Source: Temnopleurus reevesii (taxonomy: Eukaryota > Echinodermata > Echinoidea > Temnopleuroida > Temnopleuridae). Taken from it: a stretch of 64,000 nucleotides of DNA. Under the pieces are notes generated by a model that saw only the letters and a list, made by a program, of their open reading frames with translations, did no database searches and was not told the DNA's origin. Shown in pieces: positions 18,101-51,100 of this stretch. The DNA lies in NCBI GenBank assembly GCA_036244855.1, contig BQKZ01000092.1:163138-227137 (forward strand), written 5' to 3'. Numbering within the stretch: position 1 is the stretch's first letter; each line of letters begins with the position of its first letter. Made by a program: the position numbers and the translations under genes.

Positions 18101-21100
18101 AATTTATTAAAGCACACACAAACAAACACCACACCATACCGCACATGCACACACACATACACATCCAAACACACAAAAGGCATTGTAACTATAACATAAT
18201 TCAAATTTTCACATATTCTGTAAATCGAACTTATTGTTTTGACAACTTGGTTGGCAATGCAATTATCTGACATGATTTGATTAGCCAAGGAAACCATATT
18301 ATTCCTATGTTTAAATTTGAATGTGTAAATAGATTTATTTATCTAACGGTCCAAGATTAAGATTCAAAATCCCAGTTATCAAACATTAGTACAATGAAAC
18401 ATAATATCAAACATTATGTAATCTAGAGGATTTAATTTTATCCGCAGGATATCACTTCCAGGAGGGAAAGTATCATATTCACAAAAGTCACTTTTTTATA
18501 TCGTACACTCAACAAAACATCCACTAAAATGGACCTTTAACGTTGTTGGGAAAATAAGATACAAAAGCACTTCTAGTTTATCTCTCTCTTTTTCAAGTGA
18601 AAGTATGTTCCCCTTCACCCTCTTTTAATGTCATAAGTTGGTTAGTTGATGGTTTTCATTCACCTTAGATAGTATAGAAATTTAGATTCATGGAGAGCAT
18701 GATGAGTGTATAGCTTCAAATTCATGCATGTCTGTTCCACTGTATCTTGATGCACCAGTAGAATGCAAGGTTAGAAGAGCATTGTTTTGTCTTCATCAAC
18801 CGCTACGCACCTTGTTCATGTTGCACTGCTGCACGGAGTGGATTGCTATCAGCAACATTGCTTAAATCAACATGAGCATTCCAACTCTCTTCAACTTAAC
18901 AGAGACCACTCCAGCTGCAGAAGAAATAGCAAAGGTTGCCACCGTCGAAGTTGATGTTGCACCAAAGGAAGTAGCAAAGGTCCAGCTCCCCATGGAGGAA
19001 GCCCTACCAGGGGAAATACCTGAGGTAACGGTTCAAATCGCTGCACCAGAGGCACCTCAGGTTCCCGAGTTGCTTCCTGAAGAAGCCAAACCAGAGGTCC
19101 GTGAGGAGCGCCCTCGTGATATACCGCCAGCTGCCGAGGTTCCTGTTGAAGCCCCCAGACCTGAGGACACACCTGAGGATGAAGAAAGACCTGAGGAAGA
19201 ACCAGTCTCGGTAACCATCGATGAGGGTCCTTCCGAAAGTGCTCCATTTGATGACGACGACGATGACGAGGATGAGGATCTGACGGAAGGTGATCTTGAC
19301 AGTGAACCAATATTGGAGCCAGAATTGCCACTTGAAGAAGGCCAAGAAACAGAACCAGAGAAGAAAGACAAAAAAAAGAAGAAAAAGAAGAAGAAGGACA
19401 AGAAGTTGAAAGTACAGGTCCGACCTCTTGATTCACCGGATGTGGAATATAAAAGACGTGTCTTCCTGGACACGGTGGAAGAAGAAGAAGAACCTAGGTC
19501 TCCTAAAGGCGCCAAGGCTATCCTGAAGAGGAGGAAACCCGTAGCACAGGAAGTTGAAGTAGAGAAGAAACCTGTTTCTGAAGAAGCAACCATCTCTCCC
19601 GTAACCAAGAAGCCTGAAGAGGCTCCTGTTCCCGCCCAGGAAGCACCAGAGGACGTGCCAGATGTTGGTGTATCTTCAGTCAAACCTGAAACCAAGGACG
19701 TTCCTCTGGAAAAGGTCACTCCTGAAGAGAAAGCAGTTGTGACCATTGCCGAGGTTACACCCCAAGTAACAGAACCAAGGGATACGGCTGAAATTGTCCT
19801 CCCGATCGAGTCAACGCCTACTGAAGTCGAAGCAACTCTCAGAGTGGGCAAGCCACAAGATGCGGAGGAGATGCAAGAGGTGCAGGTTGAAGTGGGAGTT
19901 GAGGAAGTGAAGCCAGAGGAAGCCGTGACACTGGAGGTACCATTGGAGAAGGCTGAAGTGACAGAAGTTGCTCCTGTCATCGTGGACAAGTTGAAAGACC
20001 AGGTAAGAATCACCCTGGACCCTTTTCCCACCCACATTCTAGCAGAAAGACCAGGTAAGAATCACCCTGGACCCTTTTCCCACCCACATTCTAGCATTAC
20101 TGTAAGATTTTTTATTCTGTTTAACTCCAGCATTGTGTTACAGCATCATGGTCCTACATTACAATATATTGTGCAGGTAAATTAAGATTTTAGATGTTTC
20201 AATATTATATTTTTTTCGCTGAATATAGAAGTTTTAGATTAGCGGATGTACTGGTAGGATGAAAGTTTAAAACAACTGATTTTATTTTCTTCAAATTATT
20301 TGATGGTGACTCGGTCACAGATGTTGCATTATATTCCATTGAAAGATATGTCTTTCAACCTAAAATGATAAACTGTATTCTCCTCAATTCCACGAAATTT
20401 TTTAAGATGCAGTTTATTGCAGTTTATTTGAGACAAAATATGCAATGCAAGAAACTTTACTTAACAACTTTCGATACCTATTAAATGCTTAAATTGAATG
20501 CAATATTGGGTTCTGAAAGACTATATTCAATTCACCTTCAATTCAACATAATTCAAGATTTTATATTTCATGCTTGCTTCTTTTTCTTTCCGAGTTCACT
20601 GTACACTAATTATAAACATGTCAATTCATTTTTTCACTCCCATGCTTGTTCTTGTCTAGACGGTAAAAACTGGGGCTCCTCTAAAACTAACATGCAAAGT
20701 AACTGGAGAACCAACACCAGATGTTGAGTGGTATAAGTAAGTATCATGCACATTTGAATCACCATTAATTCATGGGAACTCCTAGTGAAAATGCTTATTC
20801 TGTAATCTATAAAGGTGAATGGTGTATCTGATGACTTTTGTTTCGTTTTAGAACTTTGCATTTTTTCAATTTTATTGGAATCTCACTTTCAGTGGGAAGA
20901 CATTAACACAATATAGACTAATGCTCCTTTGTAAATGCTTTTCCTAAATCGGGACCGGTTTGCTACTGTGATGTTTGCGCAGTTAAATACCTGATGTACA
21001 GATCTATTGTCCCATGATACACTCAATTTGATGAAAGTGCTTCTAAATCTGCTCATTCTATGCTTTCATAATTGATCATACTTATGACCATTCCATAATT

Positions 21101-24100: not shown

Positions 24101-27100
24101 TGTAGGCATGAATTCTTATTTTAGGTTTTTTTTACAAGGAACAACTGATAACATGATGTAACCTATTTCCGAAAAATGAAGTCAAACGCCGATTCAGTGC
24201 TCCTTTGTAATGCTATCTAAATCGGAACCAGCTTGTTATTGTTGGGTCCGCACAGTTCAATACACATCGTACGGCTCTATTGTCCATGACCGACTTCATT
24301 TTGTGGAAATAAATTATACCGTGTTTGATTTCAACAGTCAATGTGCTATCCTACCTGTTGGTCACTCTGTTACATAGGGGTAACATTATTAACCGATTCA
24401 AAGTTAAATGACAGTATTCTAACAGGACTTGCACAGAAGCCTTGCGTTTCAGCATGGAAGGGGGTAACGTCCATGCTGGATCCTTCATTACACCGGGGTA
24501 CACCAGGGTAAACAGTTTAATGCTGAATGAATCAATTATTATGAGCATTGTAGAGGGGTCACCTGTTTCCTTAATGGAATGGGCTAGACTCCATGCTAGT
24601 CCCTCCATTACACAAGGGTAATAGTGTCAATCAGTTTACTACTGAATGCTCAAATTCTTGAATTATTTATACAGGAATCATTTTTATTCCATCAGTCAAT
24701 GACTATCCTCAATGCTAGTCCCTTTCAAGAGTAAGATTAATAATCAGATAAACACTGGTTGTGCAACTCTTAATGGATTTTCAGTATCCACCAGGCCATG
24801 GGTTAAACTCCAGACTCGTTCCTCCATTTTAACAGGGTCACAGTGTTAACCATTTTGTTGCTGAATGCAAAAATGGTTATAGGCTTTGTGTAGGGACCAC
24901 CTGGTTCTAACACCCGTACTGGTCCCTCCATTAAACCAGAGTGAGAGTATTAACCAGATGACCAATGCTTTATTCCACAGTGTCAAGCAATGCACATATG
25001 AGTATGTAAATTGTTATAAACCTCGTACAAGAGCTATCTGTCTTTTGAAAATGATTTTTGTTTTAATTAATAATATATTACTCTGGAAATGTATTTTTTA
25101 CTAGCTCTTACACAGAAGAATGCAGTTCATTTTGTAGTCACAATTTTCGTATTTCTCCCAAAGATTTAGAAATATAAAAATATAAAAATAATGGCTTGGG
25201 GGAATTTCCTGTTTGTAATCAAACATTTCCTCCTATCAATCAAGCCCACTTTAGTGTACATTATGACTAAATATCATAATCATTTATCAATAAATCATGA
25301 TCACTGATCACTAAATCATCATGATCATTGATCATGTATTAATAGCATAACCATCCCAACAATCTCTGAAAATTCTACCACACAGGCGAGGATGCAACAT
25401 TCAAATTCACAATCATGGGTTTCCCTGCACCCACCCTCACCTGGAACAAGGGCTGGAAGGCCATCAAACCCAGTGCCCAGTACATCATCGAAACAGAGGA
25501 GACAACTGGAGAGACCATCTTCACCATCACTGCGGCCAAGATGACCGATGCTGGGAAGTACGTTTGCAAACTGACCAACCCTCATGGTGAGGCTAAGCTG
25601 ACCGTCACCTTAGTGGTCAAAGAAAGGCCCAAAGAGGAGCCTGAAGCTACCCAAGCCAAACTTAAAAAGTAAGTTGCTGTTAGATTGTTCTCACGGCTTT
25701 TTTCATTTCCTCACAATTTTCTTCATTACTACTTAAGATATATTCAAAATACATTTGTGTCACATATTGAAATGCATAAATGGTAAAATTGCATCATTTA
25801 TTGCTGATGATATAACAACAGGAGAACGAAAAATCAATAAAGAAATATTTTGCAGTTTATGTAGACATCAAGTTATAATGTCTAACACCTCTGTAACTGT
25901 TTTTCAAATTGCCATAAGAAAAACCTGCTCCGGCTTCAAGAGGAGCATTAAAATTGTGCTGCAGCTAATTTTATGGAAACTAATAATTGTCTTGAAATAG
26001 TTCTTGCCTTATCCCCACGTGGATAAACACTGATTGGCGATGCATTTCTGAGATGATACCGTGAAAAAAAATTACTGGCAGACTGGGGTAGGAATTAAGC
26101 CCAAGATTTCCTGATCACCAGACAGTCTTACTCGTAGAGCGCCTGGTACAATTTTTTTCAATTGTAATGTACTGAACATAAAAATAATTCACGTAAAATA
26201 ATTGTCTAATCTTTCAGGCCTGAGCCAGAAGAGAAAAAGAAACCAGAGGTCGTCGAATCCAAAGAGGAGATCGAAATCTACAAACTACTCAAGGATGCAG
26301 AGCCAAAGAACTATGAGAAAATCCTCCGAAAGCATGGCATCATCGACTTCAAGATCATCCGAAAGCACATTGAGATGGTGAAGACGAAGAAAGCTGAGGA
26401 GGAAGAGAGACATAAAGCAGAGTTTGAGGCTCAGTTGAAGGTACGTTACATGTTTTGCTGTATGCTATAAAAGTAATGTCAAGTTGCAGAATGTGATGGC
26501 AGCAGTATCACAAGAAAGTACCATTGTTACTCCTTATATTTCATGCAAATATTAGCGTACATGACATATTTCTACCATGATGGAACTACAGGGGCTAGGT
26601 TGGCTGTAGCCTTCCCACAATTCCCCCACTTTTTTAACAAAGTATGTGCCGATATACGGCAGCCCTTTAATTTTCAAGACATTGCTCAGCACCAGCAAAT
26701 TGTCTAGATATGATAATTGGCGCTCTATGTTTGTACAAATTTTTTTTCCACTTTGCTGCCATCAGATCTGCTGAAATTTATGTTTGTAAATTAGATTAGT
26801 TATAATTGTTGTCAATTTTAATACAACATTAATTACTGTATGTTATATACCTATGTTTTGATATTCAACAAATGTTAGTCTTCTATAATAAAGATTTCTG
26901 AGGTCTAAGGTTTTTAATCCATTTTTCTAGGAACAAATTTAAAATCAAATTGAATTGCAATGTAACATCTTTTCACTATAAATATAAATGAAATATATAT
27001 GACTTTCAATAACTTATTAAGTCTTCTATGATGAATTTTTTTTTTGTTTATGATGGTTTTTCAAAAGTATAATACAGTATTTGTAAACATATTGAAATGA

Positions 27101-30100
27101 TTATACAAATGTTCACATATTTTGTTGGAATAAGAATGTTTTCTTGCATGTACAACATGCTGCCTGTTGTTCTTCATGTATCCACACGCTCAATTTGAAT
27201 ATTGATTTTTTCTCACATTAACAAACATGGTTCTATCATGTGCACGTTAATGAGACAGTTGGCTTATTTTCTTTAAGTTGCAATTATTATTTGCTTGTTT
27301 GAGAGGGATTTCATGATTTCATTTATGTTGAAATTAAGTTGTTGTGAGAAATGTCACATCTACAGGTAATATACAGTGTGTGTATGAAATGCGCGGACAA
27401 AATGATTTAATATTCGTCGGGTCATTATGATGTAGTATCGTGTCACTTGTTGAAAGCGGGGTACTAATGCACAGAGCACTTAGAAGCATTTGTATTAAGC
27501 TGTATATGAATGCACAGTATTCTTCTTTTCAAATTATTATTGGTGAAGGAAAAGCATTAACCCCCTTATTTTTACTCTTAAGTTGTCGTGAGTCATGGAA
27601 AGTTTCAAGTATCTTACTATTTGTTACTGAGAGACGGTGGACATCTGAAAATATTTTAATCTGAAAGACACTGGAAGTCACCAGTGTTGACTATGAATAA
27701 TAATATCATCAACTATTATGCAGACCAGTATACAGTCATTGAACAGTTTTATGAAACTGCCATCGCAATAGCCATTGTACAATACCAAAATACCAGTGCT
27801 TTTATCCCTTGTGTGGCCTCTTCAGCTTTGCATGTTATGATAAATTTGTACTTCTACAAAGCGAACTGAAACAAAGCTTTAGGAATCATTTTACCTTTTT
27901 TTTCTTCTACCACTCTATACCTATATCCTTGATGTGATATGTTTCATAATGATATAGGATTTTATTGCCGAAATCGCTACATCTTCATCTTCACCCATGC
28001 TTTTTGTTAATGTTATTTTGACTGAGTAAATACCATCGTGAATGGAAGTTATTTGTAATGAAAATGTTGTTCATATCCATTGGTCCATTATCATAAACAA
28101 ACAAACATACACACACACAAACTACATATACCTACACACAACTCCTCCCCTTTCAAATAAACGTCATCCTGGATGATGAATTATGTGCAGTAGCTTCAAT
28201 GTATATCTGTATATACTACAAGTTGGATCTGAACAATGCATTTCAAGATCAAAGCTTACATGTGTCCTATCTTTCAAAGTAGTTTTTTTAGGAGATGATC
28301 GGCCAAATTCCAATACTATCATTGGTTGTGTTTTTTAGGCTTTGTTGTAATTTTATGTTTGATAATAAATAGTTTGTCATTTTATTGGTGGAAGGTGCTA
28401 TCATATCAGAGAGTCACTTACAAATTTATTTTTGTCAATTCAATGGTTAGATTTTAATAAAGAGGGTTTATTATTTCTTTAGATGTTATCTTCTAGGTAA
28501 TAAGGAATATGTCACAAATGGAGTGGACAATTACGTAGAGTAGATAATAGTTTTTATTTTTTGCGTTTTCCTCATTACCACCTAGCAAACTATGAAACAC
28601 AGCATAATTACAGGGTCGCCTGATCTTATGAAGCCATGTGTTAAGTGCATAAAGATCATTCTATTTTCCTGGTTCTCAATTTGTGACTGAAAAGAGTCGC
28701 AGGTATAGATGAATTTCTTTCTCAAGGAACTTAGAACAGTGACGAAAATCAAGATGGTCACAATATTGAAACTCAATTTGTTTGCCATGTCATCTCCATC
28801 AGATATACTAGTAGCTACAATCTAAGATAATATCACATCCCATACTGTTAGAAAATATACAATCAATATCAATATAAATCAATATCCTGGTACGATCACA
28901 TCATTTCATCAGTTTTATCTCGCATGACGACAACATGGCTTGATAGCCTTGGCTGACCTTTTTTTCACGTTCACCCAGGTTTCTTGACGCTAGAAATATT
29001 GCAGGCTCTGTATTGTTTGTGAAGCGCTGTGTATTTCATCCAAGGATCCCGGAAAAGGGGCAAGGAGTTTAGCACAAAAGCTTCAGCAATACAGTGATCT
29101 TGATACTGAGCGATTGCAAGAGAGCCATCACAATCTTTACAACTCTATTCCGAGAAACCAGACTCTTATGACTTTGTTTATTTCGGTACTCTGGGAAAGG
29201 GAAGTAAAGAGAGTTTTGATTTTGAAAAAGAGTTTGTTCAACATTGACCCTGATACATCCATTGCTCAAGTCGTCTTTTAGCCTGATGTACGTTTAAAGA
29301 TTGGCATTTTCGTTATCAGGTTATCCGGGGATTAGAGCAAATTTGATGTCGATGGAGGATGAAGTTATGATTTTTGCACTATTCTCATCTCTGGTGTAAA
29401 ATTATTTTACATGGCTGCAGGCTGGTTGTTATTGAATGAACATCAATTCATTTTTCATTTCAAACAGTGTGTTTCTCATGGATCATTTGGTTGCATGTCT
29501 TGGGAATGAAAATCTTCACAATTATAAAGGTAAATAATAATTGTCGAGGACTGTGTCGCTTTTGTGTGCAGGTTGAGCAGGTAGATTTAGAGCCAGCAGA
29601 TGACAAATCTAAAGAAAGAACTTCAACCATTGTCGATATCAAGCCTGAAGAGACAACAAGCGTTATTGCTCTTGAACTGGAACAAACTGAAAAGACAGTC
29701 TTAGGTGAAATGCAACTAGAAAATGTTACTCCGACACAGATCACCCTTGAAATATCAAAACCAGAGGAGAAGATGCCCGAAGAAGTTTCTCTTGAAATCA
29801 AAATGCCAGAAGAGAAGAGACCAATGACTAAGGAAGAACAAGAGCAAGAAGAAATCTATCAGCTTCTGAAGGATGAAGAACCCAGTCAATATGAGAAGGT
29901 TCTAAGAAAGAAAGGCATTATCCAACATAAACTGCTCAGACAACATATTGACATGGTCACAACACGCAAAGCTGAAGAGGCCGTCTTAGCTGAAATGCAA
30001 TTAGAAGATGTTATTCCAACGCAAGTCACTCTNNNNNNNNNNNNNNNNNNNNNNNNNNNNNNNNNNNNNNNNNNNNNNNNNNNNNNNNNNNNNNNNNNNN

Positions 30101-33100
30101 NNNNNNNNNNNNNNNNNNNNNNNNNNNNNNNNNNNNNNNNNNNNNNNNNNNNNNNNNNNNNNNNNNNNNNNNNNNNNNNNNNNNNNNNNNNNNNNNNNNN
30201 NNNNNNNNNNNNNNNNNNNNNNNNNNNNNNNNNNNNNNNNNNNNNNNNNNNNNNNNNNNNNNNNNNNNNNNNNNNNNNNNNNNNNNNNNNNNNNNNNNNN
30301 NNNNNNNNNNNNNNNNNNNNNNNNNNNNNNNNNNNNNNNNNNNNNNNNNNNNNNNNNNNNNNNNNNNNNNNNNNNNNNNNNNNNNNNNNNNNNNNNNNNN
30401 NNNNNNNNNNNNNNNNNNNNNNNNNNNNNNNNNNNNNNNNNNNNNNNNNNNNNNNNNNNNNNNNNNNNNNNNNNNNNNNNNNNNNNNNNNNNNNNNNNNN
30501 NNNNNNNNNNNNNNNNNNNNNNNNNNNNNNNNNNNNNNNNNNNNNNNNNNNNNNNNNNNNNNNNNNNNNNNNNNNNNNNNNNNNNNNNNNNNNNNNNNNN
30601 NNNNNNNNNNNNNNNNNNNNNNNNNNNNNNNNNNNNNNNNNNNNNNNNNNNNNNNNNNNNNNNNNNNNNNNNNNNNNNNNNNNNNNNNNNNNNNNNNNNN
30701 NNNNNNNNNNNNNNNNNNNNNNNNNNNNNNNNNNNNNNNNNNNNNNNNNNNNNNNNNNNNNNNNNNNNNNNNNNNNNNNNNNNNNNNNNNNNNNNNNNNN
30801 NNNNNNNNNNNNNNNNNNNNNNNNNNNNNAGGTTGAGCAGGTAGATTTAGAGCCAGCAGATGACAAATCTAAAGAAAGAACTTCAACCATTGTCGATATC
30901 AAGCCTGAAGAGACAACAAGCGTTATTGCTCTTGAACTGGAACAAGCTGAAAAGACAGTCTTAGGTGAAATGCAACTAGAAAATGTTACTCCGACGCAGA
31001 TCACCCTTGAAATATCAAAACCAGAGGAGAAGATGCCGGAAGAAGTTTCTCTTGAAATCAAAATGCCAGAAGAAAAGAGACCAATGACTAAAGAAGAACA
31101 AGAACAAGAAGAAATCTATCAGCTTCTGAAGGATGTAGAACCCAGTCAATATGAGAAGGTTCTAAGAAAGAAAGGCATTATCCAACATAAACTTATCAGA
31201 CAACATATTGACATGGTCACAACACGCAAAGCTGAAGAGGCCGTCTTAGCTGAAATGCAATTAGAAGATGTATCTCCAATGCAAGTCACTCTGGAAATTT
31301 CCAAGCCAGAGGAGAAGTTGCCCGAAGAAGTTTCTCTTGAAATAAAAATGCCAGAAGAGAAGAGACCACTGACTAAAGAAGAACAAGAGCAAGAAGAAAT
31401 CTATCAGCTTCTGAAGGATGTAGAACCCAGTCAATATGAGAAGGTTCTAAGAAAGAAAGGCAATATTCAACACAAACTAATCAGACAACATATTGACATG
31501 GTCACAACACGCAAAGCTGAAGAGGCCATCTTAGCTGAAATGCAACTAGAAGATCTTACTCCAACAGAAGTTACTATGGAAATTTCCAAGCCGGAGGAGA
31601 GTTTGCCCGAAGTTTCTCTAGAAATCAAGATGCCTGAAGAAAAGAGACCGCTGACTAAAGAAGAACAAGAACAAGAAGAAATCTATCAGCTTCTGAAGGA
31701 TGTAGAACCCAATGAATATGAGAAGGTTCTAAGAAAGAAAGGCATTATCCAACCTAAACTTATCAGGCAACATATTGACATGGTCACAACACGCAAAGCT
31801 GAAGAGGCCGTCTTAGCTGAAATGCAATTAGAAGATGTTTCTCCAATGCAAGTCACTCTGGAAATCTCCAAGCCAGAGGAGAAGTTGCCAGAAGAAGTTT
31901 CTCTTGAAATCAAAATGCCTGGAGAGAAGAAACCGATGACTAAAGAAGAACAAGAGCAAGAAGAAATCTATCAGCTTCTGAAGGATGTAGAACCCAGTCA
32001 ATATGAGAAGGTTCTAAGAAAGAAAGGCATTATCCAACATAAACTTATCAGGCAACATATTGACATGGTTACAACACGCAAAGCTGAAGAGGCCGTCTTA
32101 GCTGAATTGCAATTGGAAGATGCTAGTCCAGTCGAGGTGACACTAGGAATTGGTTCAACCAAACCTGTGGAAAAACTTCCAGAAGATATTTCCAAGATAC
32201 ATCTAAAGGTTAGCCTCCTAGAAGTTTTGAATCTTCTGTCATATGAATTCTTAATATAACAGGTTACTTATTTCGGGGAGGTATCCTACACAGTCAAAAA
32301 TACAACATTTCAGTCTCCTAATATTTCAATAGGATTTCTCCATGCTTTTTTTTTCAAAGAGCCTTCCACAGGAATTGTTAAGATGTGTACGTCAGAGCAG
32401 TCTCTATTACTTCATGAACTGTGTTGCACTAATAATAATGATAATATGAGGACTTATTTAGCGCTGGTATTCGCCAAGCTCTGATGCTAATGGCGCTCAA
32501 CATAAAACAATACATTACAAACACATAACTGAATTACTAAACAACTTGAAATATCAAACCAGAATTAATCAAATACATAGAAGTGTTCAGAAAAATATAT
32601 GTTTTCAAGGCAGCTTTGAAATGACTGAGGGATGATGACACTGTAGGGATTACACTATCCTCTATTTCAAATGAAAATAACCTCAATTCGTATCATTCCT
32701 GTACTTGTATTACATATCAGGCATGATATTTTCAAGTTAATTTATGATGGAAAAAAATGTAAATGAACACTAGGTATTTGTTAGGTATTGTTAAGGTGTG
32801 CTGCATGATGAACCTTCTGTGGGACTGTGTACAAATTACACGTCGCATGTACACAAATAGTTAACGTTTTTATTTGTATCATTTGAATGGAGGCCTTACT
32901 CTTCATTTACTGAACTATTCATGAAATCAATTATTATTCAACAAACTAAAAGTAATTAAAATTCTTGAGCAACATTTTTCCATGTCCAGTTTAGGATACT
33001 GGTCTAATAATAAAAAACCAAAAAAAAAATTTAACCAAAAAAATAATAATTAAAAAAAAAAAAAATTAAAATAAAAAAAAAAAAAAAAAAAAAAAATAAT

Positions 33101-36100
33101 TAAAAAATTAAAGAAAAAAACACAGGTTTATGCACAGCACTTAACTATAGCATCTCTGGTAGATGCAGTTAGAGGGGTATGTGTGATCAGAGAGAGAGAT
33201 ATTTGGAATTGTGGTTGAGCACTGTGTGTAGTCCCCGTGTGTTCGCTGGGAAAATATGAACAGAGGCAGGTGCCATTAGACCACAAGGTCATCAACTGAA
33301 CTCCATGTTGGCATGTCTTGGACCCTTCTGATTATAGTTCTTGATGTGTCCTTGGATCATCTGCAAAGATAGATATTAAACAATTATATTGTCTCTGTTG
33401 CATAAATGGTGCCAAAATGCCAAATCAAATTCCCATCCCATAATGGTCTATAACACTGCTAAATAGTGCCATGATTCATAGATTGATCAAGATTTTGGGC
33501 GGAAAGTCTACAACCTCCTATTTTACTGCACATTTCAATTCCCTGGTTAAACAATTTCGGAGGTGAAGGCCCCCTCCATATTTCAATTTTTTCTTGTCGG
33601 GCTATTGATCCCCTTAACTTTTCGCTGGATTTATCCCCCCCCCTTCTGGCTTCTGGACTCATAGGAGTATGCATTCCTTTTCATCTTTCATCCTGACCAC
33701 TTTTTAGAGACCCTTAAGTTATAAGTAGCTGTTTCAGCCCCCGCTCTTAGCCCCTGTCATTTACTCTTGAAGCCAAAATCTTCACATTTCAAATGACGAA
33801 CATAGGACGATAGATTTCCCTCAATATCAATTACAGATGGGCTCATACATTTCATAATGATCGCCTACCGGTATGAGAAAAATCATAAGAATACTACTAC
33901 TATTGATATTGCTAAGTTAGGCAGATAACTTGCCCTATGATGGTATGATTAAATACGTTGGTTCATTGCGTAGGACTCAAGTCCAGTCCTTAGGTTCTTT
34001 CTGACCTTTTCTATGTCAATTTAATGCAATCATATACATCTAATCAGGCTCGATACTGATAACTCTCTTGCTTCCCATGCTGTTTTACTGCAAATTCTTA
34101 AGAAAATATTGTGATAAAGAAATTGACTGAGATGGGGTAATACATTGTCTTTTTTTTTTAAGGTGGGGTTGAAATCTGACCGAATAGTCTTTGTATGTTT
34201 GTTAACATATTCTATCAAGTAATTTAAATGTGATGAATTGCAAATTAATACACCGCTCATTAGAACTGCACTGTGAATATGTATCTTATTTCAGGATTAT
34301 TAGCCCATTTAACTTGATCAATTTGCCAGAAAAGAAGAAAGAATTAATTTTCCCTATATTCATTCCGATGCCTTAATACTTCTTATATCTTAATCTATTC
34401 TTTTTCTACTGTTCGTTGTATATGCTGTATTAAATTTATCACAGTATCTGCAGACTCTTTAGTGTTCGTTTAAGAAGAAAGAGACAATTGAAATGTAGAA
34501 TTTAAACTGTTTATTGGTAAAAAAAAAAAATAATAATAACTAAGTACCAGCAAGACAGAAAAATAAATTTGGGTTTTTTTCAGACTTGCGTTAATGTCAA
34601 CCTCGAGAATGCCTTAGTGGGGATCAGTCCCACAATTATTACCCCAAATCAATTTATAAATATCTGTAATTTTAAGGTGCTTTCCAGGATTGGTGCAATT
34701 CATTTTTATGTTGGTGTTGCACCTTGTCAATGTGAGTTGGCCAAAATAAGAAGTGCTACATTCTGATTGACATCTTTATTATTTTTTTCAAACATTGTTT
34801 ATTTTAGTTTTTTCATGATCCTATTGTAAGAATGGCAACGATCTGGCACATTTGCACGATATTTCATTCTGTCTAAGCCACATTTCAAATAAGATGCATG
34901 ATGCTGCTTCGATTCTGAAAGAAACAATGTTTGTCGCAGGTAAGAGCTTTGATATATTTAAACATTGAGCATTTTTGTATGTTTTTATTTATCGCCATGT
35001 GACTATGGATTCATACACTGAAGGATGTGATTTCTTCCATGATTCGGGCCCCCGAATGCAGCTTGTTTCACTTTTCTTGCGTCTTTTCTAAGCATGTTAA
35101 AGTTCTACCTTCCCGTCTTAGCGCATTTGCACGAAGTTGCATTTTATTTTGCGTATCTCCTATATTTTCACAAGAAACTCAAAGTGATGCTGTTTCTATT
35201 GACGAGGAATACACAGAAAGTTTGTACCATCCTGTTGCTGAATGCTTAATTATATTCAAACAAGAATATTCAACATCCAGGCAGGACGATGAAACTAATT
35301 CTGTGGTATTCATCACGCATTCCTATTCTGTTTTGCATGAGAGCAAGTTAGTCGATTGTATATACAAATCGTGATACGCAGATATCATCTTCAACTTGTT
35401 TACTCTCGGAAGGAAAGGTGCATAGGCTATCACGCTAATGCACAATATTAACGAACTGCAGGAAGAGCTGGGTAATATGAGTTGAAGATGGACGTTCCAC
35501 TGATTTGCTTGAATTGCATGGAAGTTGTTTGCTGGAAGTTGCTTTATTAAGTTCGCATGGAGAGTTCTGCTGGTTTCTTCTCGAAAATCTGTCAAGCTTG
35601 AAGATCATCTGCTATCTTGGAAGGTAATCTTCAATTTCTTTGGATTTCGATTTCAGGAGGAAAAAATACCAGAAGACATGGAAATCACTCTCGAGATCAC
35701 AGATGGCCGTGAGGTTTCTGAAAAGACCGTAATTGAAATAACATCTACCGAAGTTGAACGTACAGTCACCACACAACACTCTGAAATTAAAGAAGCTGCT
35801 CAATCCGCAATTGAGATACAATTTACCCCAGACAAACCTGAAGACAAACAGGAAAAGAAAAAGCCAATGACAAAGGAAGAAAAGGAAGCAGAGGAAATCT
35901 TTGAGATTCTCAAGGATGTACAACCTGAACAATACGAGAAGGTATTGAGGAAGAAGGGTGTGATCCAAGCTAAGCTTATCAAGAAACACATCGAGATGGT
36001 TGTAAAACGCAAAGCAGAGGAGGCTACCGTCGAGGAATTCGAGATTACTCTAGACCAACCTGTCGAGACTGCACCAGAAGAAATGGTTATCACAATCGAA

Positions 36101-39100
36101 CCATCAAAGGTTGACGAAGCTGCCCCAACTGAAGTTGAAATCCAGATTGCTCCAAAGAAACCAGAAGAACAGGAAGAAAAGGTCGAGGTTAAGATCACTA
36201 AAAAGAAGCCTGAAGAAAAGGAAGAGGTAGAAGTCAAGATACCAGAGAAGAAAAAGCCAATGACCAAGGAAGAAAAGGAAGCAGAGGAAATCTTTGAAAT
36301 TCTCAAGGATGTACAACCTGAACAATACGAGAAGGTATTGAGGAAGAAGGGTGTGATCCAAGCTAAGCTTATCAAGAAACACATCGAGATGGTTGTAAAA
36401 CGCAAAGCAGAGGAGGCTACCGTCGAGGAATTCGAGATTACTCTAGACCAACCTGTCGAGACTGCACCAGAAGAAATGGTTATCACAATCGAACCAACAA
36501 AGGTTGACGAAGCTGCCCCAACTGAAGTCGAAATCCAGATTGCTCCAAAGAAACCAGAAGAACAGGAGGAAAAGGTCGAGGTTAAGATCACTAAAAAGAA
36601 GCCTGAAGAAAAGGAAGAGGTAGAAGTCAAGATACCAGAGAAGAAAAAGCCAATGACCAAGGAAGAAAAGGAAGCAGAGGAAATCTTTGAAATTCTCAAG
36701 GATGTACAACCTGAACAATACGAGAAGGTATTGAGGAAGAAGGGTGTGATCCAAGCTAAGCTTATCAAGAAACACATCGAGATGGTTGTAAAACGCAAAG
36801 CAGAGGAGGCTACCGTCGAGGAATTCGAGATTACTCTAGACCAACCTGTCGAGACTGCACCAGAAGAAATGGTTATCACAATCGAACCATCAAAGGTTGA
36901 TGAAGCTGCCCCAACTGAAGTTGAAATCCAGATTGCTCCAAAGAAACCAGAAGAACAGGAGGAAAAGGTCGAGGTTAAGATCACTAAAAAGAAGCCTGAA
37001 GAAAAGGAAGAGGTAGAAGTCAAGATACCAGAGAAGAAAAAGCCAATGACCAAGGAAGAAAAGGAAGCAGAGGAAATCTTTGAAATTCTCAAGGATGTAC
37101 AACCTGAACAATACGAGAAGGTATTGAGGAAGAAGGGTGTGATCCAAGCTAAGCTTATCAAGAAACACATCGAGATGGTTGTAAAACGCAAAGCAGAGGA
37201 GGCTACCGTCGAGGAATTCGAGATTACTCTAGACCAACCTGTCGAGACTGCACCAGAAGAAATGGTTATCACAATCGAACCATCAAAGGTTGACGAAGCT
37301 GCCCCAACTGAAGTTGAAATCCAGATTGCTCCAAAGAAACCAGAAGAACAGGAGGAAAAGGTCGAGGTTAAGATCACTAAAAAGAAGCCTGAAGAAAAGG
37401 AAGAGGTAGAAGTCAAGATACCAGAGAAGAAAAAGCCAATGACCAAGGAAGAAAAGGAAGCAGAGGAAATCTTTGAAATTCTCAAGGATGTACAACCTGA
37501 ACAATACGAGAAGGTATTGAGGAAGAAGGGTGTGATCCAAGCTAAGCTTATCAAGAAACACATCGAGATGGTTGTAAAACGCAAAGCAGAGGAGGCTACC
37601 GTCGAGGAATTCGAGATTACTCTAGACCAACCTGTCGAGACTGCACCAGAAGAAATGGTTATCACAATCGAACCAACAAAGGTTGACGAAGCTGCCCCAA
37701 CTGAAGTCGAAATCCAGATTGCTCCAAAGAAACCAGAAGAACAGGAGGAAAAGGTCGAGGTTAAGATCACTAAAAAGAAGCCTGAAGAAAAGGAAGAGGT
37801 AGAAGTCAAGATACCAGAGAAGAAAAAGCCAATGACCAAGGAAGAAAAGGAAGCAGAGGAAATCTTTGAGCTTTTGAGGGATGTCGAGCCTAAAAACTAT
37901 GAAAAAGTTTTGAGGAAGAGGGGTATCATCCAGATGAAGGTCATCAGAAAACACATTGAAGCTGTAGAAAAGCGCAAAGCTGAAGAAAAAGTTCAGGTAT
38001 CTAATATATCTCACTGTTTCTTAATTGCTTATTTGTGATTATTTTAATCCTCAGATGAGAGTGATACATTTTATACACAAGGAATTACTCTCAATATCAA
38101 GGAATTAGTGATGGTTGCACTCAGGAGCTCATTTATATGTTTTTTGCCCTACTTGGGCTTCTCCTGAAATATAGCATTTTATCTTTGTTGATTTTGTCTT
38201 ATACTGTCTAAAAGAAGTTTGTGGTTGAGAGTCTACCACAGATAGTTTTTCTTTGTACACTCTTATTTTCTTTCTGAAATACTGATGGTGTGGTGTATTT
38301 AGGATGAAATTTGACTCTTGTTCATTTACCTACCAGTTTCACTGGATTAATGAACGTATTGCTGTTATACCATATCAGAAGAATTACTCAGACACTTCGC
38401 AGAAATGACAAGAATGAACGTCTATGCTATTAGTATAATCTGGAAGGTTCTACATAAATCATATCAAAGGTTGTGTCACAAAACAGCAAAGTGAATTTTG
38501 AATTTATTGGTGAATATTTATGTTAAGTCATCTTCTGCTGTAGTACGGATTCACTCAGAAATTATGGCGTGGATAGGGTATGGAGGGGGGTGTGGGCACA
38601 GAATTCAATTCAGACAATGGTCTAAGAGAGTGTTGCTACAAAGTTGCAATTGATCACAAATCAACTGCAAATCAGCTGCAAATTGTATCGAGCATTTCTA
38701 TTTGCACATGATAAGCGCGTTTAACAAGCCGCGTATGAAACAATGGTTTTAATTAGGGCGTTCCAATCAACTGCGATTTGTGATGAATTGCAACTTTAAA
38801 AAAACACCCCTTAAGCCGAAATCTATCAATGGGTACCATTTTATCTACCAAGGTAGGTTCGTTCAGTCTTGTCTTGGTTACTAATATAATACTTATAGTG
38901 AGTTCAGTAAATAGACACCACTGTACAAAATGAACATAAAATGGATATATGTTTGAGCGTATGCTGGAGCTGTGAGTTCTTATTATTGCTGAAAGCAAAG
39001 AAAAGATGATTAAATGGGTATGTAATGCAAACATAGCTTCAGAGAACCAAAGCTATTTCATATACAGTAACTAAACAGCAACTAGTGATATGATATGTAC

Positions 39101-42100
39101 AGTACATGCTGTGATGTCCTGAGCATGTTTTCAAATGCAGAATATTTGCGAGAGAGAGAGAGAGAGAGAGAGAAAGAAACACGTCTATATACAACAAGCA
39201 GAATGGCATGAACATAACATGGCATACAGAACTGTCTCTGTGACTATTATTTACCTGATTATTCTACAGCAAAAGACATCACAGGAGGTCGAAGCAGACG
39301 TCACCATAAAGGTTCCCAAAGACAAAGATGCTCCGAGTGAAGTGGTTGAGGCAGCTATCATCCAACCTGTGGAAGCCACACCTGCAGAGGCTGCACCTGT
39401 CGATAAAGCACCTGAGCCGAAAATGAAACCAGGTATTTATTGCTTCAATATCACTACATTTTCAAAAGGTCCTAGGCAACATGCTGTTCACAAAAATTAT
39501 TTGTTAAACTACTACTGAAACCTGGTATTCCGTGCCCAAATTCTATGGGAATAACAGAATTCAGTAGTCAATGGGTTAATAATTAACTGATTGTTGTCAA
39601 TAAATCAAAAATCAAATCAAAATATGTTTTAACAACCAGAGCAAGTGTCAACCAACATATGCACGATGTCTCCTTTTAACTAGCACTTGTGTGAATAGTA
39701 CATTGCCCAGTGTAGATTACAAATTTGCTCCAAACTTTATTTTTGTCCAATTCATATGAGATGTTACACCAATGTTGCAACCATGTTAAAATTTTAGTAA
39801 TGACTTTATAACAACAGAAACAACCTCTCTCAACTGCCATGGTGTAGTGGTTCTGACTCTCGCCTTTCAACCAGAGGGTCGTAGGTTCGAATCCCACCCA
39901 TGGTGTTAATTTCCTTCAGCAAGAAATTCATCCACATTATGCTGCACTTAACCCAGGTGAGATGAATGAGGACCTGGTAGGAATTCGTTACTTGAAAAAA
40001 CTTATGCACCTAACAGCTGCACTGCTAAAGCCAGGGTAATAATGCTGCAATTATAGAGCACTTAGGGAATTCTCAAGAAGAGTTGATAAGTGCTATATTA
40101 AAGCAGTCGTTATTTCAATAATTTCACTTAATCAAAACAATTTGTTGTAAAACTTGAGGTGAAAGTTTTGAATGCCACTTACAACAACATTTCCCATTTT
40201 TTTACTGAAATCTACCACATCCAATCACCTTTTTTGTACAGACGAGTGGAAGTTCACTGAGGAAGTCAAACCTGCCAAGGGTTTCAAGGGAGACACTTGC
40301 GAACTTGTCTGTGAAGTCAACGATGAGGATGCAGTGGTCGAATGGGTGAAACATGGCAAGGTACTCAAGCCGAGTGAGAAGTACGAGATGATAGAGGATG
40401 GCACCAAGAGAACACTTATCATCAAAGATGCTGTTCCGGTTGATGGAGCGAGATACACATGTCAGCTACCAAAGGCCAAGACAGCCGCTTCTCTTGATGT
40501 ACAAAGTAAGTGGCACTAAATTTGTAATTTAATCTATGAACTCAAGCTACAACCCATCACTCTGGTGGAGACTGCTAAACTTATGCTTAACTTAGACATT
40601 TTAAAATTTTCCATGTCACTTCTTAACCTCCAAGAATTTTCCATGTTTTCTGTAAACTTGCCAAAATTATCAGTGTACCCAGGTCACTACACATCATAAA
40701 GAGGGGGACTGCTGAACTTATGCTGAAGTCAACAATGTAAAAAAATGCTCATGTCTATTTTCAGCTTTTCTCTACTGCCAAGATTATCAGTGAACTTTAG
40801 CTATTGACCACCACCAAGAGAGGGCTGCTGAGCTTGTGGTTAATGTGTTTCATGTCTATTATAAATTTCAGTCCCTGCCAAAATTATCCATAAACTCAAG
40901 CCACTAACCAACAAAAAGAGAGGAACTGCTAAATGCTAAAGTCAGCAATACACAAATTTTCAATTTCTCATATAACCATCTAAAAATTGTCCATGTCTAT
41001 TCTACTAAATTTCAGTCCCTGCCAAGATTATCCATGAACTCAAGCCACTTACCATCACAGAGAGAGAGACTGCTGAGCTTGCGGTCGAGGTCAGCAACTC
41101 CAAGACTGAAGTAACCTGGTTGAAGGATGGCGAGCCAATTGACCTCACGCTGGACAAGTATGAGGTGAAGGAGGAAGGTCGCAAAAAGAAGCTGAGGATC
41201 AAGAATATATCACCCGAGGATGCGGCCGAATATACCTGCCAGCTCCCGCGAGCAACATCCAGCATGAACCTTAAAGTCGAAGGTAATTATTGCAAAAGAG
41301 GTATTTTTAGTTTTCCTGGTAGGCTTCTTCATAATGTGTGACTTCAGAACAATAATGTTAGATGAAGATCTTTCTTAGCAAGCTGTTGTTTTCTCAAACA
41401 AAGGCTTGCTACACACTCACTTTAAGAGAATTGGACAAAGTAAGCATTCAAGTATTTATAATAGCAATAGGCACACAAAGATAATGCAACAGATGTTGCA
41501 CATGTTCAGAAAATAAAAAGGGAAAGAACTTTGCATTCAATAAGCTATAGTGAAGGCTCGATTGAAGTTATTTACTTCATCCAATTACTTTGTCCCTTCT
41601 TCTCCTAGTGTTCTCTTTTTATTTTATGTTAGCATTCAAATAACTCTGTTCAGATATTCTGACTGGGTGTAGTTGGAACCTTTAACAAAGATACTTTTGC
41701 AATGATGATTCATATTATTGTTTATTCTCTAGTACAGTTACCTATCTTCTGGTGTTTCATTACAAAAAATACCTTATTTGTGGTAATGAATATTACCACA
41801 TATTGCGAAATCAAATTGATTTTACCAAGTGGTTATTTTTCCATATTTGTAAATAGAAATAGCTCCACAATTTTCAAATCCAGATATGTGATCATTAGCA
41901 ATAATTTTAACTCATCTGCCTCATTAGTAGCCAGAAGATCATCTATTATTTCTGAGCAAACATTTTCAAGTTATTTATAATTAAATTTCTATATTCCTAT
42001 TTCTTTTTGCCATAGTATTTTTCTGTGGTTATCTTTTCATTTAGTAAAAATTCTCTTGTCATTACATGATGTCTTTTAAAGACATCAAATTGCATGCTTT

Positions 42101-45100: not shown

Positions 45101-48100
45101 TTAAGTGAATGTTGTAAAGGTCAGTATATTCCTTATGTATGCCCGAACCAAAGTTGTGAATCTTCCTTAAATCATCTAGATCTTATTGTTAAATGATATT
45201 ATGACATGAATGTTCTTATTGATATATCCAATTCTTTTCTAGCAATGTATCAAATTAATTATTGATTCTATAAGGGAATCAATTAAAGTTACATTATAAT
45301 GGAATATTTTCATATTTTCAAGATTTCACGGAAATCTAGATATTCCCTCCAACTACTTAGGCATATACTTACTCTTTCCAATCCAAATCACACAGAGACC
45401 ATCAAAATTGTCACACCTCCCGAGAATGTTGACACCCGTGAGCGACAGACGGCCACGTTCATCTGCGAGCTGACCGGTGACGCAGCCAAGGCCGATGTCA
45501 AATGGAAGAAGGGAGGTCAGATCGTTCGGAAGGATAAGCGACACAAGATCATCAACGAAGGGTTAACCTCGACGCTCATGATTGAGAACCTGTCACCGTC
45601 CGATGCTGGGAAGTACGTGGTGCTGGTAGATGACATTGAGGTGCCATTCACGCTAACTGTCCAAGCCCTGAAACCACCTGTCTTCACTACCAAACCCAAA
45701 GCCGTTGACACTCAAGAAGGTATCTCCAAATTGTTCCTATGTCCCTGCCCGTTCACCTGCCAAAAGATATAAACAAAAACATTGTGTTGATGCACCCTTT
45801 CAATTTGTCATTTACTCTTGCCATTTTTGTTGGTCAGTGGAAAACGACCAATTCAGCTTTTACATTGTCAAGGAGTAGTTTATAACTTAAGATAACTTAG
45901 CTTTCTATTAACTAAATACTTAGATTCTATAGTTGTTTTTAGATTCCTGTTTGCGGTTTATAATCAATTGACTTGCAGATCTTATCTGTAAAGATTGTGA
46001 GATTTTTAAAAGAAATATGCTTAATAAATTATGACACTTGTCATGCAGGCATGTCAGCCATATTCCGCTATGTTGTGGCCGGCTTCCCCGAACCTGAGAT
46101 CAAGTTTACCAAAGACTGGAAGGAGATTACTCCAGAAAACTCTGATGTCACGTTCCAATATGATGAGGAAACGAAAGAGCACAAGGTGATCTTCCACGAG
46201 GTGACGCCAAAGGATGCTGGAAAGTACTTGGTGATTGCCAAGAACGAGTCTGGAGAGGTCAAACAGGCAGTATCCATGATGGTATCCGCTAGGCCACCTG
46301 AAGAGATCATGAAGAGAAAGATGTCCCTCAAAACGTAAGAAAAATTGGAAAAAATACATTTTTATACCATTTAAAAGAGATTTATCTGTGAATTTAAAAT
46401 TTTGTTATGTCCCTCAAAATATGAGACATGAAAGACAATTTGGTAATCGTAAGAGATGTAATTCCATGTCGTAATTTGGCTATGTATATTGGAACGTGTT
46501 TGCTGCGATTGGAAAGGAAAGCAATGTTAAGGACAGGATAATTTGTATCAAATTTAGGCACCGTGCATTCATATTACTTTTACTCCACAAATATCATTGG
46601 AATAGTTTTCTACTTTTATAATCTTTATCATTTGTAATGAACATATCAAAGTACTTTTCCATTCTCCTACCACTGAATAGATATTATAGTGGATCAATGG
46701 TTTGTAAATTTTAACAGAATACCTAAATCATCATCATCACAGTCATGATCAATGTAATAACCATTGTTATTGTTGCTCTTTTCTAGCACGGCCGCGGAGG
46801 GAACTCTTGGTGATGACGACGAGATTGACATTGAGGAAATCCTCAAAGATGTGGAGCCAAAGCACTATGAAACTGTGCTGAAAAAGCACGGAATCTATGA
46901 CTTCAGAGCTATCCTCAAGCATCTCCAAGAGATGAAGAAGAGAGCTGAACAGCCAAAGGTATGATTTCAACAAAGTTTCATTTCTTTTTGAAAAATTATT
47001 AAGCGGAGCATCATTGAAACATTCCTTTGTGTTATTGTTAAAATCTGAAATTATAACAGTATATATTTCAGCGAAAACATTAAAATGTATTTATTTGGCA
47101 TATCAACCCTTTCGGAATCATCCAAAAATAAAGCAATATTTTTACCAAACATTGAACTAACTCATAATGTTATTTGTCTAAGCATTTTCATACAAATATA
47201 CTATTGCCGGAATATGCAAGGGATAAATGTGATTTTTTTTTATTGTAAATCCAATGTATTCAATTGATTAAGCCATTTCATCTCATCGCTTTGATGAATC
47301 ATTGGTCTATGGTTTGATTCAGTATTCTCTCAAAACATCATTCATTTGTTTTGCTGTAATTATTTGCAGTGAAAAGTAATGTTTGATGAAAGTGATCTGG
47401 TGTCAATGATCCACAGGTTTAATCATACCATGGCAATTTGCTATAATAATGGAACTGAACAACCACATTTGGGGAATTAAAAAAGAAAATATGATTGAAT
47501 TTGCATTTAAATAAGTAATATTGTAATTGATTTAATGCAATAGGAGCTGGAAACACTCATGGAAGAACCCGAGATTCCAGAACAGCTTGAATCCTTGGAG
47601 CTTGCCGCCTTTGAGATGGCTGAATCTCCAGTGGTCCTTGGAAGAGGCAAGCCAGAAGAAACAGGTAAGGTTTTCTAATATGTCATTCATCATTACAACC
47701 TTCCCAGTTGCCTGCTTCAGTGAAAGACGAATTATTGGCTACCTGTTATCACTATATAGGCTCAGAGCAATAGATATGATCCAGTGACAACAAGTAAGCA
47801 AAGAATTCTGATTTGCACTGTACAGTAAAGGATTTTGGTTTATTATTTGTTCTCTATTCATTATAAAAGCAAGAAATAAAATTGCACTACTTTAGCATAT
47901 TTTCTAACATTCCAGATAGAAAGGGCTTACTTATACTCGTGTAAACAATTTACAACAGAATGTTTTGCACACAATCACAATGTTCTTCACACATTCGCAA
48001 AAGTCGAAAATTGTTGGAACATGGTTTGTGAAGGGGTCTGAAACGTCGTCAGATATTTTTGTTACAGTTTGATGTCATAATCCAGGGTAATTAGATATTT

Positions 48101-51100
48101 GTTGTTTCCTGAAATTCGATAATCTTTTATTAAATTTGTCTAACCTTTGTCATTCAGTAGACATTTGGTTCTCCATGTGTTATATTATTTGGTTGTAACT
48201 ATTCAATTTTTTTGAAATATCCTTAAAAATTAACACAATTTTTTATAGTCACGTACATGTTTATCTTATTGATGATCTTGTTTTTATTTGATATGTTGAC
48301 ATATTGTTAATATTGTTTCAAATGAAATCGTGTTCATTTTCATTTTTCATCAGGATAACATACATGCCAAATTCCTGTACATTTTAATACCCTCCATACT
48401 AAAATATTAATAACATTTTGCACATTCATCAGCAATCTACTTGATTTTTATATTCCATTTTGTTTAATTAATGTAATGTTAACCTTTATCAAAATGAATG
48501 ATTATGTATTGTATGATTTAGGGTCTGAATCAAATTGTCATAAATCCTATGACAGATGCTCTTTGATAAATGTTCTATTGGTAATCTCATGTTGCTTTAA
48601 AAATGGACATTTATCTATGGAGAAAAATAGCATTTTTCATTGGAGAATATGTTATCCTTTTCATTTTATTTTACCAACATATGATTTGACATTGAACAAT
48701 GATAATGATATGCTGTGCTTATGAATTACACATCATACATACGTCTCTATGCCCTGATTGAGAGAAAACGACAGTTATTGAGTATTAAAGTCGAACCAAA
48801 TCTACATGATTATTAAACTCAACACTAGAAGGCTTTTGATGGCTTATTGTTTGAATTGTCAAAATGAATGGCAGTCAATGTACAAGTTTGGCATCTGAAT
48901 CCAATTGTCATGAATTTCATGACTAGCCAATATTGTTTATTCAAATTTGATTTGCATTTAAATATTCAATATGTATTAAATTTTTATTTATAGGTTTTGT
49001 GTAAAAAAATGCTTAAATATATGATTTGCATTATTTTCTAACTTCAGGTGTATGAGCAATTTTTTGTGTAGTATTGAATTTGCATATTATCCAATCATTC
49101 TATAGTTATTTTAATCTCTAAACAAATGGGAACTTTTTGCCGTATGTATGTTTAAACCTTATTAGTCCATTGTTGTAATTTAAGTCTGTAATACTGTATA
49201 CATACCTGCCAACTGAAAATCAGAATCTTTACACGTTTCCCTTAATTAGGGAATATTGAAGGCTATAAAAGTCTATCATATAGAACTTAAATGACACCAT
49301 TATACATCCATCATACACATTTTATCATTGGATGGCATCAAAGTATGAAGAACAAGACAAAAATATGTGTGAAGCTTGACTTATATGGATTTATGTATCA
49401 CAGACCTTTTTTTAGAAAGAGCCACAAAATATAAATGCCAATTGTATTCATTGATAATTCAGCAAAAGTGAGACTGATGCAATGCGTTTTATTGTGGTTC
49501 TTCATCTGTTCAGTCGGCTGGTATGTCTGCATATATCAATTCATTTTAATAGGTTGTAAAGCCCATATACATAATTTTCTTGCTTTTTAGGCCCAACGCT
49601 AATGACTAGATTCAATTTGATTAATACCATTTTAGCGTTAGACCCGTATCAAAATAATCTATTCAACAGTCATCTTAGAACTCACAATAAGGGGCATCAT
49701 TTTTCGGCTTGAGCAGTTGGCTAATAAAATGTTTTGGCATCGGAGAAAAATAAAAGTCTAATACAGTACCCCGTACTGTACTCAGTCAATATGCAAATAT
49801 CTAGAAACTGATACCAGATTTTAGGAAGAGAAGAACATATGACAAATGCTGCGCTTAACCACATTAAGGTTTTATGCAATTTTTTGCATGGAAATCTTTC
49901 CATGAATTTTCATGCAGCAGATTTGAAGGGAAAATTTGAACTTCAAATCATCTTACCAACAGTAGGAATAGAAACTATCAATTCTGAAAATGACGCCCCT
50001 CTTTATTAGGACTTTATCCCTTTCACACATTTCACATGGCAAGCACCAATGATCATGTTAGCTCTCTCATATAAAAGAGAAGGTAGGTATTCTATCGCTT
50101 ATTTTCATTGCACTCTGTGTGTTACGCACTTATTTCCATCATCATCATGGGCACACGCTTTCATTCACTTCTGCCTCCACATCATGAGCATCCACCTCCG
50201 GACCTTTCATCAAACCATCAAAATGATGCCACTGTGAGATCCGTCTCACCATAAAAAACTTTCATGATAATGTTTCGCTCACTAGAGCGACTGGCACAGG
50301 CCGAGATGTTCAAAACCCTGGAGGATATTGCTTCCAAGATGTCGGACGATACCACGGTAACACCAGCTGAGGATGCTAGCGGTGTCACAAGGACAGAAAA
50401 AGAAATACTCTTTGCTGAACTTGAGAAGGAGAGGGTAGCGACAGAAGAAGTTGTCGTCCCCAAATCTGCGCCCAAGCTTGAGGCTACGGTGGAAACACTT
50501 GTGGCTGAAATAGGAGCAGGTACCAAAATTACTTCATGTGTAAACCATTTCCATACTATAAGATTTGGTTACATTCTAGATTTTGCTGAGATTATCATAT
50601 TCATCAGTTATCATTCAAATATGATGGAGTGAAGTTATATGTATTTGTCGTCTTTGATAAACTTGTTAAACCATCTGTCTTTCAATTACTTACTTTCAGT
50701 TCTATGTCAATAACTCTTTGTTTGTGTTTTCATAGTCTTTTTTATTTCTCTTATCCATTCGATGTAACCTCAAATATGATTCATTGTTTTATTTTTACTT
50801 CACAATGTTTGTTTTAATCCATTGTACCGTTATAAAGTATTTTCTTAACTCTAAAAAAAAGTACTTTCTGACTCGTTGTATCTATTTAGTTGTGATGAAG
50901 ATAATTTATGTAATTAATTAACAATGGATATACTCATTTTCAGCATTACAAATTGTTTACAATTTCTATGTATTTTATATTTATCATTCATGTTTCATTT
51001 ACTGTTTCATACATTTCTTCAGTTACATCTGTAAGCTCATTTGAGAGAAATTCTCTTTGATGATGTATTTGTATGTCGTTGTATGTCATTTCACTTTTGA

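Follow-up and report, generated by a model that had tools for sequence, protein, structure and literature searches.

The tri-helix bundle (THB) is known from two families of muscle proteins. In vertebrate titin, two reports describe a single such element, the N2A unique sequence (UN2A, also N2A-Us), which has a tri-helix core with disordered ends, lies between the Ig domains I80 and I81 and counts CARP and S100A1 among its partners (PMC11687307, PMC8305307). MyBP-C, a smaller Ig/FN3 protein, carries a homologous core in its M-domain (2lhu, 5k6p, 9pfe). Among invertebrate titins, crayfish I-connectin reportedly lengthens its spring by arrays of charged non-Ig repeats of 68 and 71 residues; it is the closest precedent, the likeness being the charged non-Ig arrays. 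Here we describe a stretch of 64,000 nucleotides from the echinoid Temnopleurus reevesii (GCA_036244855.1, contig BQKZ01000092.1, positions 163,138 to 227,137; hereafter the window). On its plus strand lies what looks like a titin-like gene, with THB units in a probable I-band-like spring of the titin/connectin type. Whereas the vertebrate element is described as single, 11 units follow one another here in two arrays with no Ig domain between them, and two more units stand alone.

We located the units by scanning six-frame open reading frames (ORFs) of at least 25 residues with a profile made from units of the window itself. This search returned 13 THB-type units, all on the plus strand, and no 14th at E ≤1:

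26255 and 46812, plus strand: the single units s1 and s2
29830, 31090, 31375, 31657 and 31942, plus strand: the units of array A
35873, 36266, 36659, 37052, 37445 and 37838, plus strand: the units of array B (B1 to B6)

The units fall into four exons of a model that combines splice signals with reading frames and was inferred from the sequence alone:

26218 to 26440, plus strand: exon of the single THB s1, phase 2 to 0, core 26273-26389, bounded by AG and GTACGT
29572 to 32208, plus strand: exon A, phase 0-0, with THB-like cores at 29851, 31111, 31396, 31678 and 31963; holds the assembly gap
30033 to 30829, no strand: run of 797 N inside array A, the assembly gap
35657 to 37996, plus strand: exon B, 780 codons, phase 0-0, with cores at 35894, 36287, 36680, 37073, 37466 and 37859
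46787 to 46958, plus strand: exon of the single THB s2, phase 2 to 0, core 46827-46943, with splice sites

An earlier sequence-only reading had counted one single unit, five units for array A, six for array B and another near 46787, and all 13 were recovered, although the 797-base gap makes the count of five for array A uncertain. The positions 26218 and 46787 that it gave are inferred exon starts and 37996 is an inferred exon end. Its periods of 95 and 131 residues were confirmed, array A repeating at 285, 282 and 285 nt (95, 94 and 95 residues) to the right of the gap and array B five times at 393 nt with repeat finders. The core L-K-D-x-x-P-x-x-Y-E-K-(I/V)-L-R-K-x-G, which it saw in each unit, is exact in 11 of the 13 (11 six-frame matches); the two others deviate, the last array B unit with LRD and the unit at 46812 with YET and LKK. 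A simpler sequence pattern recovered 12 of the 13 units and missed the one at 46812.

With the solved titin UN2A core (7nip) as the query, the 13 units were the 13 best domain matches among 1450 six-frame ORFs (11.1-29.0 bits), and the next match scored 6.3 bits. In controls run with this query only, the best of 20 protein shuffles reached 8.7 bits and the reversed set 6.2 bits. A chance or low-complexity match is excluded, since the 13 units top the 1450 ORFs and exceed the controls. The Pfam THB family (PF18362, cut-off 25 bits) was passed by both singles, s1 with 34.7 and s2 with 31.0 bits, and by whole array stretches through summing (30832-32220, 40.5 bits; 35657-38020, 49.6 bits). Among the Pfam names reported, only THB was common to all 10 single units and exons submitted. 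Scattered weak matches of the arrays to DUF4382, Cas_TM1802, DUF6406, RbsD and others were set aside as matches to repetitive charged sequence. DUF3954 scored 30.0 bits on the whole of exon B (cut-off 23.7) with no individually significant stretch.

A 12-unit profile searched against the PDB ranked titin 7nip first (E 1.1e-5), followed by slow MyBP-C (9.8e-5) and cardiac MyBP-C (5e-4). The 12-row alignment behind it, also used for the first structure job, includes a few intron-coded residues at the ends of the rows 26210-26464, 37796-38020 and 46761-46961. An array-only profile, made from seven of the 11 array units and free of intron-coded residues, gave 7.6e-4 for 7nip, 9.3e-3 for slow MyBP-C and 0.26 for cardiac MyBP-C. 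Titin UN2A took the top rank in four PDB searches, and unit by unit it outscored slow MyBP-C in 12 of 13 cases and cardiac MyBP-C in all 13, by small margins. By these scores the nearest solved relative appears to be the titin N2A unique sequence core, slightly ahead of MyBP-C. The bundles had previously been called MyBP-C-type; the THB-type homology stands and MyBP-C is nearly as similar, but this wording is doubtful given the slightly better titin match. The likeness to UN2A extends to a short THB after an Ig domain (here at the two singles), disordered flanks and an I-band setting, while the third helix of the array units has diverged and is predicted to be longer, its extension being of low confidence.

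AlphaFold models agree with the three-helix fold proposed before: at moderate confidence overall, they consist of three-helix beads joined by mostly disordered linkers. An array B unit has predicted helices H15-27, H32-42 and H47-71, and a two-unit piece of array A is predicted to form two three-helix bundles; the predicted third helix exceeds the short THB helix in length and ends at a predicted local distance difference test (pLDDT) score below 60. The bead core carries a charge of +1 to +5 and the array linkers are acidic; the alternation of THB motif and charged linker in a titin-like gene is supported. P, E, V and K together make up 54% and 65% of the two linkers measured, a composition reminiscent of titin PEVK; unlike PEVK, the chain is interrupted by a predicted folded bead every 94/95 or 131 residues. 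Allowing 0.37 nm for each disordered residue and 3 nm for each folded bead, with a bead taken as 45 residues long, we computed for 10-11 array units a contour of ~320-365 nm with beads folded and 460-515 nm with beads open.

The surroundings of the arrays are those of a titin-like gene. A single plus-strand gene is consistent with splice sites and frames across the THB exons, and further features are found on either side:

25370 to 25668, plus strand: Ig (I-set) open frame, Pfam I-set 62 bits, donor GTAAGT, start approximate
39270 to 39432, plus strand: short P/E/V/K/A-rich exon, disordered-looking, downstream of the arrays; open frame, bounded by AG and GTATTT
46036 to 46334, plus strand: Ig before the last THB, phase 2 end, donor GTAAGA
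61163 to 63595, plus strand: four consecutive FN3 open frames, Pfam fn3

An Ig profile built here gave 20 matches from 1217 to 60745, amounting to ~19 Ig domains; two of the 20 look like halves of one split domain, and the pieces at 9464 and 21477 are weak. The Ig at 46036-46263 scored 78.9 bits with this profile, its top PDB matches being titin Ig domains. The Ig exon that ends at 25668 in phase 2 stands directly before the first THB exon. Both singles have an Ig directly before the THB, joined by a phase-2 intron, an arrangement absent between array units. In the stretch 61163-63595, four of the five ORFs given scored 56.6-66.9 bits with Pfam fn3, the fifth (62301-62720) overlapping in another frame without an fn3 match, and for the one FN3 frame compared (63152-63595) the nearest PDB relative is a titin FN3. 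The titin/connectin layout of many Ig domains, a disordered PEVK-like part and then FN3 is thus found within the window, while a C-terminal kinase or M-band end was not seen within these 64 kb. The arrays had been placed exactly where titin has its PEVK spring. They do lie between Ig domains of a titin-like gene, but the equation is loose, because a separate acidic PEVK-rich exon stands upstream of them (~18.9-20.0 kb) and the short disordered-looking exon downstream. At the end of that PEVK-rich exon, 19993-20096 consists of a 52-nt unit and an identical copy directly behind it, each with a donor-like CAG/GTAAGA and an acceptor-like TTCTAG site; the duplication may represent two alternative donors or an assembly duplicate.

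Comparison among the units separates the bundle core from its linkers. The core is 67-69% identical between arrays A and B in the two pairs compared and 44-69% identical among five representatives including the singles, and that of s1 matches the three array cores set against it at 56-67% identity. The ratio of nonsynonymous to synonymous substitution rates (dN/dS) for the core between arrays is 0.14 and 0.17 in the two estimable pairs, two further pairs being dS-saturated. The array linkers differ between A and B in both length and sequence while the bundle core is conserved. Within array B, B1-B5 differ at 0-4 of 393 nt, as expected of recent unequal exchange, and B6 is distinct.

The explanation that we favour, with a probability of roughly 0.58, is that a titin N2A-type THB core was duplicated and then tandem-amplified within two exons, making the region a compliant multivalent segment. 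Tandem duplication inside exons A and B would have multiplied the N2A-type core; each unit would fold into a small bead of three helices, positively charged at its core and opened by low force, and the arrays would lengthen the spring contour as beads pass from folded to open. In a single-molecule report, the N2A element pulled singly stretches like an entropic chain of ~39 nm, and no visible peak marks the opening of its helices (PMC7093598). With 10-11 units of such single-copy properties, the added contour would no longer be negligible. The conserved beads on their acidic linkers could in addition present actin, or an N2A-type signalling partner, with a docking surface that recurs from bead to bead, so that the segment would be compliant and multivalent and not a plain PEVK coil. 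Both the spring and the docking roles of the arrays are what we infer. A more specific version, a "sticky spring" made by multiplying the N2A docking element into the main spring, is doubtful. In it, about a dozen helical beads, with positively charged cores and acidic linkers between them, would hold on to the thin filament or to a signalling partner while stretch is low and release or unfold on lengthening, bead number setting both stiffness and signalling.

Several observations weigh against this explanation. Taken alone, the eight array units tested (of 11) score only 13.2-16.3 bits with Pfam THB, below the cut-off of 25 that the singles pass (all five of array A, 13.2-16.1; three of the six of array B, 13.7-16.3), and only the first 17-23 of the 34 family positions match; for their scores below the cut-off we term the array units THB-like or THB-derived. 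At s2, which of all the units has the highest scores against the solved THBs of titin and MyBP-C, titin 7nip (29.0 bits, E 3.3e-6) and slow MyBP-C (28.4 bits, E 3.7e-6) are practically tied. Foldseek found no significant match in the PDB for either model, and the match lists of a second look contain no MyBP-C structure. Including the acidic helix extensions brings the net charge of the predicted bead close to neutral (-3 to +2), so that a basic bead becomes less likely. Neighbouring array A units gave dN/dS values of 0.08, 0.23 and 0.77 from few changes, pointing to uneven constraint. Searches of a protein database whose length limit excludes whole titins returned no relative of array B (E 0.001) or of one array A THB (E 0.01). 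The two-Ig open frame at 2162-3058 has two relatives at 91% identity in the protein set, on contigs shorter than 2 kb, so such animals, be it a close relative or this species itself, are represented in the database. For the single vertebrate copy, one study gives a simulated decrease in passive force of only 1.4%, its authors judging the element unlikely to have a mechanical function in itself (PMC7093598), and another notes conflicting reports on actin binding by N2A (PMC8305307).

Among the rivals, the one that survives best is that the assembly inflates the arrays, the array A copy to the left of the gap being a false duplication and the copy number of array B unreliable; we consider this plausible, if somewhat short of an even chance. 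The 463 nt on the left of the gap match the 463 nt on the right with 13 mismatches (97% identity), the right gap edge coincides with an exon-start AG, and the almost identical B1-B5 are difficult to assemble. It is thus possible that the first array A unit, to the left of the gap, is a false duplicate, or that a further exon copy lies hidden in the gap. Yet the gap touches only one of the array A units seen here and leaves the frame intact, and no N interrupts A2-A5 or B1-B6.

Less probable, and in our view rather unlikely, is that the arrays serve as spacer only, that is, as recent unequal-crossover expansions, largely neutral or selected for length, whose bundle has no partner. The near-identity of B1-B5 is what recent crossover or gene conversion typically leaves behind, the linkers resemble PEVK, and the dN/dS of 0.77 for one neighbour pair in array A would also fit. 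What argues against a spacer is the bundle core itself, which is kept between the arrays at the identities and low dN/dS given above despite the differing linkers, a constraint that a plain coil would not need.

That a MyBP-C-type M-domain THB was captured by the titin gene and then amplified is improbable. Slow MyBP-C nearly equals titin for s2 and outscores it for one of the 13 units. MyBP-C also has an Ig domain (C1) before its M-domain, so the Ig-then-THB order does not separate the two proteins. Titin UN2A is nevertheless ahead in the other 12 units and first in the four PDB searches, and the gene surroundings are titin-like. The compact MyBP-C layout, one M-domain between two Ig domains, is not what we found, with 13 units and ~19 Ig domains in 64 kb and the arrays in a giant titin-like gene. 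No capture is needed, because vertebrate titin already carries the THB element.

A different helical domain that merely resembles THB, such as an RPAP3_C-like bundle, is very improbable: RPAP3_C equals THB on the whole of array A (41.0 bits, cut-off 23, against 40.5) and, at ~15 bits, in four of its five units alone, but at E ≤1 no RPAP3_C match is listed for s2 or exon B, on both of which, as on s1, THB scores highest of all families, s1 shares 56-67% identity with the array cores compared, and titin and MyBP-C THBs come first in the PDB profile searches.

Three further observations concern other parts of the window. A 105-nt tandem repeat occupies 203-726 in five copies 98% alike and begins beside a lone N at 202. 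A probable intron holds short, degenerate repeats of 54 and 61 nt at 24509-24967. At 50255-50629, between Ig domains, a charged and possibly helical open frame shows no match to our own Ig and THB profiles.

A single N2A THB element was known before; within the limited literature searched, its amplification into arrays appears to be new. Among the papers listed by our search of titles and abstract openings in a limited library, none reported THB arrays in titin, which is not proof of their absence. The mechanical role of the titin N2A helical element is debated, since one copy barely alters passive force and actin binding is disputed (PMC7093598, PMC8305307). A protein that naturally carries some twelve copies should show spring and binding effects that grow with their number, so that both questions become testable with a stronger signal. 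Such a protein would also show that multiplication of a folded helical module can lengthen titin springs, and not that of PEVK or Ig domains alone.

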